NCBI GenBank assembly: GCA_005804885.1
Contig: SYOX01000319.1
Span: 1-64,000, forward strand
Source of the DNA: Pseudomonadota bacterium
GTDB lineage: Bacteria; Myxococcota_A; Bradymonadia; Bradymonadales; GCA-2716585
Length of the DNA stretch: 64,000 nucleotides
Direction: 5' to 3'
Below, piece by piece: positions 36,276 through 48,912 of the stretch (its first letter is position 1; every line of letters starts with the position of its first letter). The notes below the pieces were generated by a model. The model was not told the origin of the DNA. It did no database searches and was given only the letters and a program-made list of their open reading frames with translations. A program made the position numbers and the translations under genes.

Positions 36276-36561
36276 GCCCTACGCTCCTCGCACCGCCCCC
36301 TGCGGGGACGGGCTCGTCGGGTAGGGCTTGGATGCGCGGGGCGGGCTGCGCCCTGTCGGGCGCAGGCCGGCGGGCGGTCGACAGCGGATCGCCGGGGACG
36401 ATCAGCGCGTCGAAGTGGGCCTGTGGATTGGGGTTTTCACTCCCCTGGTGTCGACTTGGGTCGTGCGGGGGCCTGCGACCGACAGGGCGCAGCCCACACC
36501 GGATTTCCAGCCCCACCCGACGAGCCCGCCCCAACGGGGCGGTGCGAGGAGCGTGGGGCGC
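36276..36561. repeat. ~286-bp non-coding element with ~100-bp terminal inverted repeats, copy 1
   Basis: The ends carry ACGCTCCTCGCACCGCCCC (left) and GGGGCGGTGCGAGGAGCGT (right). The pairing continues inward through GGGCTCGTCGGGT-GGGCTTGG and the GGGCTGCGCCCTGTCGG...GCAGGCC box. The centre (~36400-36460) is unpaired. No ORF in it has coding signs. It fills the gap between miaB and the Cys-rich lipoprotein gene. Confidence 0.85.
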
Positions 36562-36682
36562 TGGCCGACGCCGCGGCGTTTCCCTTGTCGTTGGCTTTGT
36601 TTGCAGATCCGGGCCCTCATCCTCTAGAGTCTCCGGAGACGGTCGAGCGCTTTGTGGAATGTCGATGTGGTGGATGAGAGAC

Positions 36683-38875
36683 ATGAAGAAGTTGTTGAGG
36701 GTTCTTGGGCCGCTGATGCTGGCGATCGCGCCGCTTGTCCTGGGGGGGTGCGCCGTCGGCACCGGGGTCGACGCCGTCTGCGAGGAGGACGCGGACTGCG
36801 CCGACGGCGCCTGCCTCGACGGCGTGTGTGTCGCGGCGACCTTCTGCTCGACGGACTTTGACTGCCCCGTTGGCACCTTCTGCGTCGATCGGGTCTGCCA
36901 GAGCTTCGGCAACAACGAGCCCAACAACGACCCCAACAACGAGCCGAACAACGATCCCAACAACGATCCCAACAACGATCCCAACAACGACCCTGGCGAC
37001 GACTGCGAGGTCGACGGCGACTGTCGGGACGATCAGTATTGCGAGGGAGGGGTCTGCGCGGCTGGCTGCCACACCGACGAGGGCTGCATGGTCGGGCAGG
37101 TCTGCGACGTGGCGCGCCATGTCTGCGAGGCGGCCCGCTGTCAGGGCGACGACGATTGCCCCGAGGGCCGGGTCTGCGACCCTGAGAGTGGGGCCTGCGT
37201 GAGCCCGCCGGTGGTCTGCGGCGATCAGACCTGCGGGGAGGGGCAGTGGTGCGACTACTTCGCCGCCGCGTGCATCTCCGCGCTGCCCGGGCCGCCCTGC
37301 ACCTCGGACGCCGGCTGCGCCGAGGGCCAGGCCTGCGCGCCCTCCAACGACGCCGACGAGGCGCTGGTGACGGTCTGCGTGGATCGGGTCGGCCAGGAGG
37401 AGGCCGGCGCGTCCTGCGAGGACGACGGGGCGTGCGCCTCGGGCCTCTGCCTGCTGGGGGTGTGCTTCGGGGCCTGCGCCGAGGACGGCGACTGCACCCT
37501 GGACGGCGCGCAGTGCCGCACGGTGCCCGTGACGCCGCTGCCCGGACACAGCTTCAGCGTGGCGGCCTGCCTCCAGATCGCGCCCTGCACGCGCGACGCC
37601 GACTGCGTCGAGGGCGAGGTCTGCGGGATCGTCCCGGTGGGCGACGGGCTGCTGGCGATCTGCGTCGAGAGGGCGGGGGACAGCCCGGCCGGCGCGGCCT
37701 GCGCCGAGGACGCCGAGTGCGCCTCGGGGGTCTGCGTCGGCGACACCTACCGGCGCTGCCTGGGGGCCTGCGCCTCGGAGGGCGACTGCGCGCCGGCCAA
37801 CACGGACTGCGCCGAGGAGACCTTCCTGATCGACGACGCCGGCACGCCCGACGATCCCAACGACGACGTGACCTCCACCCATCAGGTCTGCGACTGGTCC
37901 CAGGGCACGGGGGCCGCCTGCGGGCGCGACGGCGCCTGCGTCCAGGAGGTCTGCACGCTGGCGTTCGAGGACGACGTCGTTGGCGGCGCCTGTCGGCCCG
38001 CCTGGGGCGCGGCCGGCCCCGGCGCGCCCTGCGAGGACCACAACGACTGCCGCACCGGCCTGTGCCTCGACGGCGGGGTCTGCTACGGCGCCTGCCTGGC
38101 CGACAACGACTGCACCCAGGGCACGACCTGCGAGGGCGTCACGATCGGCGAGGAGCCCGGCGCCCAGGAGATCCAGATCTGCGTGCCGCCGCCGCCGGCC
38201 TGCGCCTCCGATCTGGACTGCGCCGAGGGCCTCTTCTGCCTGCCCGTCGAGGACCCCAACACCCCCAACCAGATCATTACGGCCTGCGTGCAGGGGCCGG
38301 GGGGGGCAGGTCGGGCGGGCCAGAGCTGCACCGTGGACGCCGACTGCGGCAGCGACTTCTGCCTGAACACCCTCTCGGGCACCCGGGTCTGCTACGGGGT
38401 CTGCGAGGTGGGGTCGAACCGCGGCTGCAATGGCGACACGATCTGCTACCCCAACAGCGTCTTCTTGACCTTCGATCAAGACACCGTGCCGGCCGACGAC
38501 GACCGCTACGACTCGACCTCGGCCTGCCAGCCCGACTTCGGCAGCTTCGGGGCCTGCGCCAACGACTCCGGCTGCCCCTCGGGGGAGATCTGCTACCCGT
38601 CCTCCAACCGCTTCCGCAATGCCTTTGAGCTGCGCTGCTTCGACGCCTTCAACCCTGGAGGCCGCGGCCGAGGTGGCTCCTGCAGCACCGACGCGCAGTG
38701 CGCCTCGGACTTCTGCGTCGACGCGGGCTCAAGCGACTTCTGCTTCACGATCTGCGCGAACTCCGCGGACTGCGACGGCCTGCGCTTTTGCGACCCCGCC
38801 GAGCTGACCGTCAACGATCGCGGCACCCCGAGCGAGCTGGACGACATCACCGACACGGTCAACGTCTGCCAATAG
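36683..38875 (+). CDS. Large Cys-rich lipoprotein with NNDP linker
   Basis: I start at the ATG at 36683 (MKKLLRVLGPLMLAIAPLVLGGC; lipobox LGGC); in-frame ATGs at 36659, 36665 and 36674 are alternatives. 730 residues. After two short Cys modules comes a low-complexity linker of NNEP/NNDP units (~76-103), then more than a dozen disulfide-type modules of the form C-x-DDGDC...G-x-C-x4-G-x-C, rich in Asp and Gly. No enzymatic motif is seen. It is probably an outer-membrane-anchored extracellular protein; binding partner unknown. It is transcribed alone, just after the palindromic element. Confidence 0.8.
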   Translation: MKKLLRVLGPLMLAIAPLVLGGCAVGTGVDAVCEEDADCADGACLDGVCVAATFCSTDFDCPVGTFCVDRVCQSFGNNEPNNDPNNEPNNDPNNDPNNDPNNDPGDDCEVDGDCRDDQYCEGGVCAAGCHTDEGCMVGQVCDVARHVCEAARCQGDDDCPEGRVCDPESGACVSPPVVCGDQTCGEGQWCDYFAAACISALPGPPCTSDAGCAEGQACAPSNDADEALVTVCVDRVGQEEAGASCEDDGACASGLCLLGVCFGACAEDGDCTLDGAQCRTVPVTPLPGHSFSVAACLQIAPCTRDADCVEGEVCGIVPVGDGLLAICVERAGDSPAGAACAEDAECASGVCVGDTYRRCLGACASEGDCAPANTDCAEETFLIDDAGTPDDPNDDVTSTHQVCDWSQGTGAACGRDGACVQEVCTLAFEDDVVGGACRPAWGAAGPGAPCEDHNDCRTGLCLDGGVCYGACLADNDCTQGTTCEGVTIGEEPGAQEIQICVPPPPACASDLDCAEGLFCLPVEDPNTPNQIITACVQGPGGAGRAGQSCTVDADCGSDFCLNTLSGTRVCYGVCEVGSNRGCNGDTICYPNSVFLTFDQDTVPADDDRYDSTSACQPDFGSFGACANDSGCPSGEICYPSSNRFRNAFELRCFDAFNPGGRGRGGSCSTDAQCASDFCVDAGSSDFCFTICANSADCDGLRFCDPAELTVNDRGTPSELDDITDTVNVCQ

Positions 38876-44033: not shown

Positions 44034-44855
44034 ATGAAGGACTCGTCCGTGGCGTTTCGGCCGCCGTCGCTCTCTGCGGCGCGGGTGCGGCTCGGGGTGG
44101 CGTCCGACCCCTGGGGATTCGGAGCCCTCATCGGCGCGCTCATCCTCTCTGGCCTCCTGAGCTCGCTGGCCGTCTTCGCGGTCGCCCTGGCCTTGCTGAC
44201 CGCGCTGGTCGCCCTGGCCCCGCACCTGGCCCCGCTGCGTCGCCACGCCGAGCGCCGCGCCATGATCAAGCGCCTGCGCCGCGCCGAGCTTCGCCGCCAG
44301 CGGCGCGAACACGGGCACCTCCTGGCGCTGCCCCCCGACCCCCGCGAGCGCTACCGCGCGCTGACCCTCAAGCTCCAGGCCGCCTCCCAGCGCTCCGACG
44401 CGCAGGCGAGCCGCGCCGACGACCACCTCGAAGGGCTCCGGGCCTCCTTCCTGAACCTGCTGACCGCCCAGGCCGTCCACGATCGCGCCCTGGACGCGGT
44501 CGACGGGCCGGCCCTCCAGCGACAGGTCGACCGCCTCACCGCCGAGATCGAGGTCGCCTCGGCCCCCGTCAGAGCCGCCCAGGTGGCCCGCCGACAGGTG
44601 CTGGAGCGCCGCCTGAGGCGCCTGGCCGAGATCCGCGATCAGCGCGAGGTGATCTCGACCCAGCTCCTGATGATCGAGGACCTCGTCAGCCTGCTCGGAG
44701 AGGCCGGCGTGGCGTCTCCCGACGGAGATCTGCTCGGCGATCACGTCGAGGGTCTGCTCGTCGAGATCGACGTCGCCGACGAGGCCACCCGGAGCCTCGA
44801 CGGCGCCGGCCCCCGGCGCGCGATGGCGCGCTTTGAGCGGCAGATCACCGGCTGA
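44034..44855 (+). CDS. Membrane protein with long coiled-coil region
   Basis: 273 residues. One broad hydrophobic stretch or two helices (WGFGALIGALILSGLLSSLAVFAVALALLTALVALAP, ~27-63) is followed by ~200 residues of Arg/Leu-rich heptad-like helix. No domain recognised. It may tether a cytoplasmic coiled coil to the membrane. The TGA stop lies in a tandemly duplicated 30-base segment (44838-44867 and 44873-44902). Confidence 0.65.
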   Translation: MKDSSVAFRPPSLSAARVRLGVASDPWGFGALIGALILSGLLSSLAVFAVALALLTALVALAPHLAPLRRHAERRAMIKRLRRAELRRQRREHGHLLALPPDPRERYRALTLKLQAASQRSDAQASRADDHLEGLRASFLNLLTAQAVHDRALDAVDGPALQRQVDRLTAEIEVASAPVRAAQVARRQVLERRLRRLAEIRDQREVISTQLLMIEDLVSLLGEAGVASPDGDLLGDHVEGLLVEIDVADEATRSLDGAGPRRAMARFERQITG

Positions 44856-44902
44856 GGCCGACGGCGATTGATCGGCAGATCACCGGCTGAGGCCGACGGC
44901 GA
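44838..44902 (+). repeat. 30-bp tandem direct repeat (period 35) at a gene end
   Basis: CGGCAGATCACCGGCTGAGG plus 10 further bases occurs twice exactly. The first copy includes the last codons and stop of the membrane-protein gene, the second lies just after it. It looks like a small slippage or duplication event. Confidence 0.85.
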
Positions 44903-44926: not shown

Positions 44927-45742
44927 TCAGACCGGCTCCAGGCCGAGGACGCGGGCGACAAAGGGCCCCTTGGCCTCCGTGTAGGCCTCCCGGTCGCGCC
45001 GGTGGCGCTCGGCCAGCGCCCGCTTGAGCGCCGCGTACTCGCGGGCCAGGGCCGCGTCGCGCCTGAGGCGGTCCCTGAAGGCGAGACGCTCTCGCCACAG
45101 AGGGGCCGCCAGAGGGACGAGGTGCAGGTGGTGGGTGCGCAGCGCCGGGGAGGGCTTGCAGAACCAGTGCATCAGCGCGGGCTTGTAGGGGAAGTGGAGG
45201 TAGCCGAGGGAGGCGGCGGCGTCGATCGCGGGGCGCGAGGCGTCCAGCGAGGTCACCGCGGCCATGATGTCGATCACGGGCTTGGCGGGCATCCCGGGGA
45301 TCGCGGTGCTGCCGATGTGCTCGATGGGGCCTGCGGCCCCGAGGCCGGGCGCCAGCCAGGGGCCCAGGGCCACCTCCAGGGCCGCCCGCTCGACCTCGAA
45401 GCGGGCCGGCCAGGTCGGATCGTAGTCGACGATCTCGACGGGGGCCTCGCGGGCGCGGGCCAGCCGCTCGATGGCCGCCGCGCCCTGCTCCATGCGCCCT
45501 CGCGCGGCGGCGTTGGCCGAGTGGACGGCGATCTGCGGCGGCTCGAAGCCCTCCAGGGCGACGGCGCGCTCGATCCAGACGATCACGTCGTAGCCCGTGC
45601 CGCGCGCGTCGTCTCCGAGGTCGTGGTCCAGGCTCAGGTGGGTCACGCCGCCGGCCTCAAGGCGCGCGATCACCTCGTCGGGCCATCGAAGCAGCGTCCA
45701 CCCCTGCGGGGCGGGGCGCTCGTCGTCGAGGTAGATCTTCAT
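44927..45742 (-). CDS. cREC receiver-like domain fused to GrpB nucleotidyltransferase-like domain
   Basis: I start at the ATG at 45742, giving 271 residues. Residues 1-~95 match the cyclic-phosphate-processing receiver domain (cREC): MKIYLDDERPAPQGW, LSLDHDLGDDARGTGYDVI, IAVHSANAAARGRM. Residues ~102-270 are a GrpB/UPF0157 domain: VEIVDYDPTWPARFEVER, IEHIGSTAIPGMPAKPVIDIM (GS motif and Asp typical of the polymerase-beta NTase fold), THHLHLVP. cREC domains occur in predicted conflict and nucleotide-signal systems, GrpB in nucleotidyl-transfer contexts. A combined enzyme that makes or processes a nucleotide or cyclic phosphate is inference. It is isolated: upstream is a haem/copper gene on the other strand. 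Confidence 0.85.
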   Translation of the reverse strand: MKIYLDDERPAPQGWTLLRWPDEVIARLEAGGVTHLSLDHDLGDDARGTGYDVIVWIERAVALEGFEPPQIAVHSANAAARGRMEQGAAAIERLARAREAPVEIVDYDPTWPARFEVERAALEVALGPWLAPGLGAAGPIEHIGSTAIPGMPAKPVIDIMAAVTSLDASRPAIDAAASLGYLHFPYKPALMHWFCKPSPALRTHHLHLVPLAAPLWRERLAFRDRLRRDAALAREYAALKRALAERHRRDREAYTEAKGPFVARVLGLEPV

Positions 45743-46042
45743 GGGCTCGAAGCTCCGTCGCGCTCGATGATCGTGTCCATGAAGTCCTCCCCAGGTCGCG
45801 GTCGGTTCGAGGTGGCGCCGTCGATCCGCCACCATCCCTCAAAGGCGCCAGCGCGTCACCTCAAATGACGAAGCAGGCCGATCCCGTGAACCTGCGCGCC
45901 ACGCCCTCGCATCTTGAGGCACAAGGTCCGCGGAGGGCCTGAAACACAATTGAACCTCGGTCAACAATGGAGTACATCTTGGATCCGCGCCGAGAAGGGC
46001 GGCGCGGTTGGCCGGTGTCATGGAGCTCCTGGAGGTATTGGG

Positions 46043-47461
46043 ATGAGATCGAGGTGGTGGGGCGCGGCGGTGTTGATGGGGTTGCTCGCGGCGTGCGGCG
46101 GAGAGCCGAAGGAGCCTGTTGAACCCGAGCCGGGAAACAACGATCCGAACAACGATCCGAACAACGATCCGAACAACGACCCGAATGAGGGCGCGCTGAC
46201 CTTCTTCAAGGATATCAAGCCCTTGCTGGACGCGAAGTGCAACCAGTGCCACTTCGACGGCGGCCCGGCCCCCTTCGCCCTGAGCGACTACGCCCAGGTC
46301 TCGGCGCTGCGCGAGAGCATCCGCCTGGCTGTTCAGGAGCGCACCATGCCGCCCTGGCAGGCGGGCCAGGGGTGCACGGACTATTACGGGGACTTCTCGC
46401 TGAGCGAGGCCGAGCAGCGCGGGCTGATCGACTGGATCGACGGGGGCGCGGTCGAGGGCGACCCGAGCCAGTCGCCGCAGGTCGAGGTCAGGCCGCCGGC
46501 GGGGCTCTCCCGGGTGGACTTGCGGGCGACCTTGCCGGAGGCGTACACGCCGCCTGGGACGAGCCCGGACGATTACCGCTGCTTCCTGGTGGACTGGGAC
46601 GAGGTCGAGACGAAGTACGTCGTCGGCTACGACGTCAAGCCCGACAACCAGGCGATCGTCCACCACCTGATCGCCTACTTGATCACCCCGGATCAGGTCC
46701 AGGAGTACGAGGCGCTCGACGCGGGCGAGCCCGGCGCGGGCTACACGTGCTACGGCGGCCCTGGCGGGAGCCGGACGAACTGGATCGGGGCCTGGGCGCC
46801 GGGCTCCAGCGCCAAGCTGATGCCGCCGGGGACGGGGATCCGGGTCGATCCGGGTTCGAAGGTGTTGATCCAGATGCACTACAACACGCTGGCGGCCGAC
46901 CCGAGCCCGGATCGCTCCACGATCGAGTTCACGCTGGCCGACTCGGTCGAAAAAGAGGCCTACATCTTCCCCTTTACGGACTTCCTCGGCTGGATCCGGG
47001 GCAACGCGATGATCATCCCGCCGGGCGAGAAGGACGTCGTCCACAGCTACGAGTTTGACCCGACCAACTTCCTCGACGCCGTCACCGACGGGGCCATCCC
47101 CAACGGCGCCTTCAAGATCTACTCGGCCTCCCTGCACATGCACACGCTCGGGACGAGCGGCCAGATCGCCATCAAGCGCGGCGGCGAGGGCGACGAGTGC
47201 ATGCTGGAGATCCCGCGCTGGGACTTCAACTGGCAGGACTCCTATGGCTTCATGGAGCCCAAGACCTTCAACACCGGCGACAAGCTCTTCCTGGAGTGTC
47301 ACTGGGACAACAGCGCCGAGAACCAGCCCTTCTTGCGTATGGACACCGACGGAGACGGGACCCCCGACAGCTTCCAGCAGGCCGAGCCGCAGGAGGTGCG
47401 CTGGGGCGAGGGGACCCGCGACGAGATGTGCCTGGGGATCATGTACATCACCGCTCAGTGA
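46043..47461 (+). CDS. Haem-c / copper-monooxygenase-like lipoprotein, copy 1
   Basis: I start at the ATG at 46043, after TGGAGG. 472 residues. The lipobox LLAAC is followed by an NNDP linker (~33-46). A c-type haem site KCNQCH (~72-77), with FDGGPAPFALSDY and MPPWQ, forms the short cytochrome-like N-terminal domain. The rest matches PHM/DBM-type copper type II ascorbate-dependent monooxygenases: IVHHLIAYLI, QMHYNTL, SLHMHTLGTSG and DFNWQDSYGFMEPKTFNTGDKL; the His pairs are candidate copper ligands. The enzymes hydroxylate their substrate; the substrate is unknown. It is periplasmic-facing and lipid-anchored. Its paralogue follows after 14 bp. Confidence 0.85.
   Translation: MRSRWWGAAVLMGLLAACGGEPKEPVEPEPGNNDPNNDPNNDPNNDPNEGALTFFKDIKPLLDAKCNQCHFDGGPAPFALSDYAQVSALRESIRLAVQERTMPPWQAGQGCTDYYGDFSLSEAEQRGLIDWIDGGAVEGDPSQSPQVEVRPPAGLSRVDLRATLPEAYTPPGTSPDDYRCFLVDWDEVETKYVVGYDVKPDNQAIVHHLIAYLITPDQVQEYEALDAGEPGAGYTCYGGPGGSRTNWIGAWAPGSSAKLMPPGTGIRVDPGSKVLIQMHYNTLAADPSPDRSTIEFTLADSVEKEAYIFPFTDFLGWIRGNAMIIPPGEKDVVHSYEFDPTNFLDAVTDGAIPNGAFKIYSASLHMHTLGTSGQIAIKRGGEGDECMLEIPRWDFNWQDSYGFMEPKTFNTGDKLFLECHWDNSAENQPFLRMDTDGDGTPDSFQQAEPQEVRWGEGTRDEMCLGIMYITAQ
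46181..46282 (+). repeat. 102-bp perfect direct repeat between the two monooxygenase genes, copy 1
   Basis: It is identical base for base to 47620-47721, covering NEGALTFFKDIKPLLDAK plus the haem site and part of the following domain. Flanking sequence differs considerably. Confidence 0.85.
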
Positions 47462-47475
47462 GGTAAAACCACGCC

Positions 47476-48912
47476 ATGACCATCAAAGCCCCTCTCAAGG
47501 CCCTCGCCCTGACCCTGTTGGCCTGCGCCAGCCTGGCCGCGTGCAAGAGCCCGGCGCCGGACCCCGCGCCGTCCAACAACGACCCGAACAACGACCCGAA
47601 CAACGAGCCGAACAACGATCCGAATGAGGGCGCGCTGACCTTCTTCAAGGATATCAAGCCCTTGCTGGACGCGAAGTGCAACCAGTGCCACTTCGACGGC
47701 GGCCCGGCCCCCTTCGCCCTGGATGACTACGAGCAGGTCGTCATGCTGCGCGAGAGCATCGCGCTGTCGCTGGAGAGCGGGCTCATGCCGCCGTGGCAGC
47801 CCTCGGAGGCGTGCAACAGCTTCGAGGGCGACTTCTCGATGAGCGCCGAGCAGAAGTCGAAGCTGCTGGAGTGGCTCGAGAGCCCCATGAACGCCGGCGA
47901 TCCAGCGTCGGCGCCCGAGGCCGTGACCCCGCCGAGCCTGAACCTGCCGCGCGTCGACCTGACGATCACCATGCCCGAGGCCTACAAGCCTCGCCTGAGC
48001 CCGGACGACTACCGCTGCTTCGTCATGGACTGGCAGGAGACCGAGGAGCGCTTCGTCACCGGCTTCCAGGCCGCCCCCGGTAATGTCGCGATCGTCCACC
48101 ACGCGCTGGCCTTCGCCATCCCCCCCGACAAGGTGCCGACGGTCGAGGCCCTCGACGCCGCAGAGGAGGGGGTCGGCTACACCTGCTACGGGACCCCCTT
48201 CGGGGATCTGGGCGTCGACAACTTCCCGTCCTTGCTGGGGACCTGGGTTCCGGGCACCGCCGCGATCTCCTTCCCGAAGGACACGGGGATCCGGATCGTG
48301 CCGGGTTCGAAGATCGTCATCCAGATGCACTACAACACTCTGAGCGGGAACGCCCAGGACGATCGATCCTCGATCCAGTTCACCCTGGCGGACTCGGTCG
48401 AGGACGAGGCTGTCTTCCTGCCCTTCACCAACCCGGAGTGGCTCGACGGTGACGGGATGCTCATCCCCAAGGGGGACAGCGACGTGCGCCACAGCTTCGG
48501 CTTTGATGTGACCCGCTACGTCAACTTCGTCTCGCAGGACCGCATCCCCGCCGGTGCCTTCATGGTCCACTCGGCCTTCTTGCACATGCACACCCTCGGG
48601 GCCTCGACGCGGATCTCGGTGATGCGTCAGGGCGGCGAGGATTGCATGCTGGATATCCCGCGCTGGGACTTCAACTGGCAGGCGACCTACACCTTCACCG
48701 AGCCCAGGAGGGTCGACCCTGGCGACGCCATCTTCATGGAGTGTCGGTGGGACAACAGCGCCGAGAACCAGCCCTTCGTCAACGTTGACACCGACGGCGA
48801 CGGCGCCCCTGACACCTTCCAGCAGCGCGAGTCCCAGGACGTGCGCTGGGGCGAGGGGACCACCGACGAGATGTGCATCAGCTTCCTCTACGTCACCTCC
48901 GCCCCGCGTTGA
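47476..48912 (+). CDS. Haem-c / copper-monooxygenase-like lipoprotein, copy 2
   Basis: 478 residues, same architecture as the previous gene: signal with LLACASLAAC lipobox, NNDP/NNEP linker, haem motif KCNQCH, then a monooxygenase-like domain with IVHHALAFAI, QMHYNTLSG, LHMHTLGAST and DFNWQATYTF. It is clearly a tandem duplicate, but the catalytic half has drifted in loops while the 102-bp haem segment is identical. The 14-bp gap and shared direction make one transcript probable. Different substrates for the two copies would be the natural guess. Confidence 0.85.
   Translation: MTIKAPLKALALTLLACASLAACKSPAPDPAPSNNDPNNDPNNEPNNDPNEGALTFFKDIKPLLDAKCNQCHFDGGPAPFALDDYEQVVMLRESIALSLESGLMPPWQPSEACNSFEGDFSMSAEQKSKLLEWLESPMNAGDPASAPEAVTPPSLNLPRVDLTITMPEAYKPRLSPDDYRCFVMDWQETEERFVTGFQAAPGNVAIVHHALAFAIPPDKVPTVEALDAAEEGVGYTCYGTPFGDLGVDNFPSLLGTWVPGTAAISFPKDTGIRIVPGSKIVIQMHYNTLSGNAQDDRSSIQFTLADSVEDEAVFLPFTNPEWLDGDGMLIPKGDSDVRHSFGFDVTRYVNFVSQDRIPAGAFMVHSAFLHMHTLGASTRISVMRQGGEDCMLDIPRWDFNWQATYTFTEPRRVDPGDAIFMECRWDNSAENQPFVNVDTDGDGAPDTFQQRESQDVRWGEGTTDEMCISFLYVTSAPR
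47620..47721 (+). repeat. 102-bp perfect direct repeat, copy 2
   Basis: Second copy of 46181-46282. The identity includes synonymous sites, so recent gene conversion is more likely than amino-acid selection. Confidence 0.85.

Follow-up and report, generated by a model that had tools for sequence, protein, structure and literature searches.

A single minus-strand gene in the window (the whole stretch of 64,000 nucleotides analysed here) joins a receiver-like cREC domain to a GrpB domain, both of them complete and otherwise the products of separate genes; the architecture is new, the parts are known. We read the gene as a real, young and lineage-specific fusion of a putative cREC phosphoesterase with a GrpB accessory partner, a reading to which we assign a probability of about 0.6. 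The gene is laid out as follows.

44927..45742, minus strand: cREC-GrpB fusion gene, one open frame of 271 aa plus TGA, GC3 0.956, no internal stop.
45485..45742, minus strand: cREC_REC domain (PF20274), residues 1-86, 92 bits, REC-like fold with four strands.
45443..45484, minus strand: junction, residues 87-100 (GAAAIERLARAREA), where in the model the last cREC helix (78-99) passes straight into the GrpB N-terminus.
44945..45442, minus strand: GrpB domain (PF04229), residues 101-266, 152.7 bits, polymerase-beta-like NTase fold.

The sequence-only reading, which gave no strand, had described one frame with a cREC start and a GrpB half. The frame is indeed single and continuous and contains the quoted motifs, running from an ATG at 45742 to a TGA at 44927-44929. 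Both family assignments were confirmed by Pfam, with scores far above the curated cut-offs and far beyond chance (cREC_REC: E 3.9e-26, 92 bits against a cut-off of 27; GrpB: E 1.2e-44, 152.7 bits against 25.5), and both folds were matched in the model. Searches of the organism's own genome located the two domains at the same places, 45485-45742 (cREC, 94.5 bits in the genome search) and 44945-45442 (GrpB), both on the minus strand and free of stops. GC3 was 0.94 in the cREC part, 1.0 in the junction and 0.96 in the GrpB part. A longer version of 302 aa starting at 45835 was set aside; this is probably not the real start, the extension having a GC3 of only 0.63. An AlphaFold2 model of the fusion protein, calculated from an alignment with relatives of both halves, reached a mean pLDDT of 93.4 and a pTM of 0.83. 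The mixed cREC and GrpB alignments A3 and A4 were misaligned and were left out; A6 was used.

The host genome is a draft of 9.86 Mb in 428 contigs (83.6% complete, 6.6% contamination), and a homologous fusion was found nowhere that we searched. Both facts would fit an artefact in which assembly or sequencing joined two separate genes, a chimeric contig included. However, frame 1 of the fusion is free of stops from nt 157 to 466 and frame 2 beyond nt 83, so a single-base indel could not restore a cREC stop near residue 98. No ATG, GTG or TTG lies between M84 and the GrpB half; hence a separate GrpB would have only the in-frame M84 as its start. On these grounds a frameshift or two-gene reading was ruled out. 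A random chimeric join, for its part, would need to hit the correct frame and the exact end of each domain. Next to GrpB lie g44034 and g43323, a gene pair conserved in other family members, and this anchors the GrpB end in native DNA. We therefore regard an artefact as very unlikely; the fusion is most probably genuine, albeit a single case. The host genome holds one cREC, that of the fusion, and one further GrpB.

Within the cREC half, three conserved motifs stand out.

45722..45727, minus strand: acidic pair D6-D7 after strand 1, putative metal site, invariant in 41 sequences.
45620..45628, minus strand: D39-H40-D41 (SLDHDLG) after strand 3, putative nucleophile or metal residues, invariant in 41 sequences.
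45512..45523, minus strand: H74-S75-A76-N77 after strand 4, H74 and N77 invariant.

All 15 positions that are invariant across 41 sequences (L5, D6, D7, R9, S37-G43, G50, E58, H74 and N77) are kept in the fusion, and together with the profile score they show that the first half does match cREC. Residues 1-90 were modeled with a pLDDT of about 97. Foldseek matched this model to CheY-type receivers with probabilities of 0.97-0.99 and a TM by target of about 0.5, the E-values being only 0.03-0.1. cREC is a putative cyclic-phosphate-opening domain of NAD/RNA systems, predicted in the literature to hydrolyse a cyclic phosphate or cADPr, and its published gene context ties the domain to RNA repair and NAD processing (PMC7824862).

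The company kept by other cREC genes was also inspected. In G002, a genome of the same bacterial family, the genes on either side of the sister cREC encode an AAA_33 P-loop kinase and a PTP-SAK phosphatase, and the phosphatase gene overlaps cREC by ATGA. Here (L179, 36-2339) GNAT, AAA_33 P-loop kinase, cREC and PTP-SAK phosphatase genes stand in a row, a candidate for a compact operon of RNA-end or ADP-ribose processing. Phage cRECs adjoin an RNA-ligase-like gene (26.2 bits, just sub-threshold), a Fic gene, an NAD-dependent DNA ligase and a calcineurin-like phosphoesterase; the viral loci L184 (3381-4130), L183 (3267-3935) and L187 (590-2542) are those with Fic, RNA-ligase-like and NAD-dependent DNA ligase genes adjoining. 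The G002 and phage contexts agree with the prediction of cyclic-phosphate opening in NAD/RNA systems (PMC7824862).

The GrpB half likewise carries three conserved motifs.

45305..45319, minus strand: H-I-G-S-T (142-146), GS motif of the NTase fold, H142, G144, S145 and T146 invariant.
45263..45271, minus strand: D158-I159-M160, in which the D-x-D/E motif has its first carboxylate only, D-I-M invariant in 37 sequences.
45122..45136, minus strand: T203-H204-H205-L206-H207, His-rich strand without acidic residues, T203, H204 and H205 invariant, L206 and H207 nearly so.

The model of this half matches the solved GrpB 2nrk (E 9.4e-12, TM 0.84 by target length), and the next structural matches are uridylyltransferases of the Cid1 type (TUTases), followed by DNA polymerase beta. 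In the 37 sequences the HxGST, D-I-x and RTHHxH motifs of the fusion GrpB are invariant or nearly so. Canonical polymerase-beta NTases carry a second carboxylate (D-x-D/E) at the position equivalent to GrpB 160. The canonical site, GS followed by D-x-D/E, is incomplete in the fusion GrpB, with GS present and the second carboxylate absent. Residue 160 is Met in 37/37 aligned GrpBs, Leu in 2nrk (D-F-L) and Gln in 6n39 (D-I-Q), and the D-I-M motif occurs in 72 of the 79 GrpB rows collected. Strand 202-210 (RTHHLHLVP), the putative counterpart of the strand with the third carboxylate of Pol-beta, has zero acidic residues. Thus, GrpB has the NTase fold, not the standard catalytic set.

These residues bear on the proposal of the sequence-only reading that a single polypeptide could both make and break a nucleotide modification. 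Such a bifunctional enzyme, in which GrpB would transfer a nucleotide and cREC would open the cyclic phosphate, so that one modification is made and broken or RNA ends are trimmed, would draw on the real NTase fold with terminal uridylyltransferases as next structural matches, on the P-loop kinase, PTP-SAK, RNA-ligase-like, Fic and NAD-dependent DNA ligase genes beside cREC relatives, and on the published link of cREC to RNA repair and NAD processing. However, the second carboxylate is missing from all 37 GrpBs as well as from 2nrk and 6n39, the RTHHLH strand has no acid, and no other cREC was found with a GrpB, either fused or neighbouring in the fetched flanks. Moreover, no conflict or RNA-repair neighbours stand beside the window gene. 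The pairing of cREC with GrpB was conserved nowhere in our searches, and so there is no evolutionary evidence for coupled activities. We therefore consider the bifunctional enzyme very unlikely; of the original interpretation the families, the folds and the single frame hold, whereas the coupled make-and-break is not supported.

The fusion gene is solitary in the window: on one side it converges with two unknown genes, and on the other it diverges from two genes resembling copper monooxygenases. PADLOC defence models gave no match, Rfam had no hit in the window, and scans for sigma-70 promoters and terminators were negative. Two further features adjoin the gene.

44833..44902, no strand: 35-bp tandem duplication, 97% matches, 2.0 copies, 24 bp beyond the fusion stop.
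45739..45780, minus strand: possible 13-codon leader ORF (MDTIIERDGASSP) preceded by a strong ribosome site (GGGGAGG), its TGA overlapping the fusion ATG (ATGA).

From its sequence, the ORF is possibly a leader peptide with translational coupling to the fusion. The duplication copies the 3' end of the neighbouring gene g44034, its final codons and stop included, and looks like the scar of a recent rearrangement. Beyond the start of the fusion gene, 46043-47461 and 47476-48912 encode adjacent paralogous lipoproteins resembling copper type II monooxygenases. Past the signal region, both have a 12-bp repeat that encodes NNDP, and the lipoprotein at 36332-38875 contains similar repeats of NNDP.

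The junction itself was compared with the free ends of both domains. Stand-alone cREC relatives terminate in ..AIERLHKAQRP* (in G002) or ..RLAAGQ*, the median distance from the domain end to the stop codon being 14 residues in cREC proteins. Stand-alone GrpBs start with M..APVEx.YDP, a few residues ahead of APVE. The fusion reads ..AIERLARARE-APVEIVDYDP.., with the natural ends of both domains abutting and almost no linker.

The two halves appear to have different ancestries. The cREC half is sister to the stand-alone cREC (about 100 aa) of G002 (SH-aLRT 91), to which it is 62% identical over residues 1-114. The GrpB half is closest to betaproteobacterial proteins of the Comamonadaceae (73% to Variovorax), whereas the GrpBs of the bacterial family itself are 39-43% identical to it. 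In the GrpB tree it is placed among Comamonadaceae GrpBs and not with those of its own family, on no strongly supported branch. Together, the cREC sister within the family, the Comamonadaceae-like GrpB and the adjoining 35-bp duplication suggest that a resident cREC was joined to an incoming GrpB by a recent local rearrangement.

A neutral accident would give much the same picture. A small deletion could have joined neighbouring genes whose products keep unrelated jobs, the linkage having no function; a singleton, a join that falls exactly on the natural end of each domain and adds nothing, halves apparently from different lineages and an adjoining tandem duplication suggesting recent rearrangement would all be expected. 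Yet neither half has lost an invariant residue and GC3 is even along the gene, so that selection still seems to act on both. In addition, the model predicts a compact arrangement at a pTM of 0.83. A neutral fusion is rather unlikely in our view.

How widespread is the fusion? A scan of genomes from 85,462 species, in which six exact 8-residue patterns were used, the best 80 loci were kept and very near genomes were possibly left out, returned 0 cREC-GrpB proteins among these best 80 relatives, all being GrpB-only or cREC-only; by its design of exact patterns and best 80 loci, the scan could miss a distant fusion. Searches of about 1,750 whole genomes also revealed no second fusion. Those with PF20274 covered the phylum of the window (n = 379), two proteobacterial centres (phylum, n = 399; order, n = 399), an actinobacterial centre (n = 297) and a verrucomicrobial centre (n = 195). 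Among 82 distinct cREC domains above 40 bits from genomes and viruses, GrpB was attached only to the one in the window. When the ORFs of the fetched loci, flanks included, were profiled for both domains, the window's own locus was the only one to contain both. Viral loci with cREC numbered 72 and were nearly all stand-alone, no place in plasmid and phage records covered 80% of the fusion query, and searches with the window GrpB found no viral GrpB. Homologues with the same fusion, whose absence the sequence-only reading had named as one half of its own refutation, were absent everywhere searched.

Several candidates were examined and discarded. Three long ORFs with a cREC match were inspected, in L099 (452 aa), L162 (387 aa) and L134 (364 aa). 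Those of L099 and L162 are stand-alone cRECs in GC-rich read-through frames. L134 consists of cREC with an unrelated tail and has no GrpB, and L060 and L063 are GrpB-only ORFs whose tblastn match had begun at residue 14. Given the singleton status, the stand-alone sister cREC in the same family and the grouping of GrpB with betaproteobacterial proteins, the fusion is young and lineage-specific.

GrpB is itself a recurrent fusion partner, in a C-terminal or internal position, and was found joined to CoaE, GNAT, DUF4440 and NTP_transf_2. A repeated GrpB architecture is GNAT-GrpB in Rickettsiales (L064, 937-2001, plus strand; L072, 3966-5540, plus strand), and GrpB-DUF4440 occurs in a Burkholderiales MAG (L043, 3680-4546, plus strand). 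In G011, a genome of the same order as the window's, one frame of 636 aa (L006, 877-2784, minus strand) contains NTP_transf_2 with an intact GS..DLD motif, GrpB and GNAT. This protein may tell more about GrpB than cREC-GrpB does.

The best documented of these partnerships is mycobacterial. Without its GrpB domain, which is required for folding, the CoaE kinase of M. tuberculosis is insoluble; no separate GrpB activity was detected, and the authors ruled out other functions (PMC2765170). By analogy, GrpB might be solely a folding or solubility partner of cREC, which would suit a predicted cREC helix 78-99 running straight into GrpB. However, about 80 other cRECs have no such partner, and cREC therefore does not need GrpB; the conserved GrpB residues, moreover, are all kept. 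A role restricted to folding is unlikely.

In the reading that we prefer, the N-terminal half would be a presumably Mg-dependent, putative cyclic-phosphate phosphoesterase of receiver fold, inherited within the bacterial family. The chemistry would reside in cREC, with D6 and D7 binding metal and D39 or D41 serving as nucleophile or metal ligand. The C-terminal GrpB may act as a nucleotide-binding, substrate-positioning or folding and stabilising partner, comparable to the GrpB (UPF0157) of mycobacterial CoaE. The halves may also act independently on one chain, possibly with no functional coupling. An argument against an accessory GrpB is that this assignment rests on absent residues. D158, H204-H207, K154 and R202 are strongly conserved in GrpB, and on this conservation GrpB is possibly an unusual His/Asp-based transferase. 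Carried further, the fusion might be an enzyme of nucleotides or RNA ends with two sites on a single chain. The product or substrate of an Asp/His-based GrpB transferase would then be the cyclic phosphate opened by cREC; this would be a fused conflict-system pair not described before, and we rate it a long shot.

Should the halves co-operate, the fusion would be a 'Rosetta stone' clue linking cREC, which is common in phages and bacteria, to GrpB, which occurs in numerous bacteria as well as in mycobacterial CoaE; both families are widespread, and their functions are unproven. The fusion also offers a single protein for assaying the predicted cREC chemistry. With a single case, the clue is weak. 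The more general result is that GrpB lacks part of the polymerase-beta active site and turns up repeatedly in fusions.

Compared with known systems, the cREC half of the fusion shares with the cREC_REC family (PF20274) its profile, all invariant residues and the receiver-like fold. The members of this family that we found are free-standing and about 100 aa long, whereas the fusion adds a C-terminal GrpB. The NAD/ADPr- or RNA-end-processing neighbours of the published family context are present for the G002 sister and some phage cRECs, but none lies beside the fusion gene. With GrpB/UPF0157 proteins (PF04229) such as 2nrk of Enterococcus faecalis, the fusion GrpB has in common the fold, HxGST, D-I-M and RTHHLH. 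Known GrpBs are stand-alone or fused to the four partners named above; nothing else searched has one with cREC. CoaE-GrpB is an NCBIfam equivalog (NF002879), whereas cREC-GrpB was seen once, and the N-terminal partner in CoaE-GrpB is a P-loop kinase in place of a receiver-like domain. Nevertheless, in mycobacterial CoaE-GrpB (PDB 6n39; PMC2765170) GrpB is likewise the C-terminal domain of a phosphate-handling enzyme.
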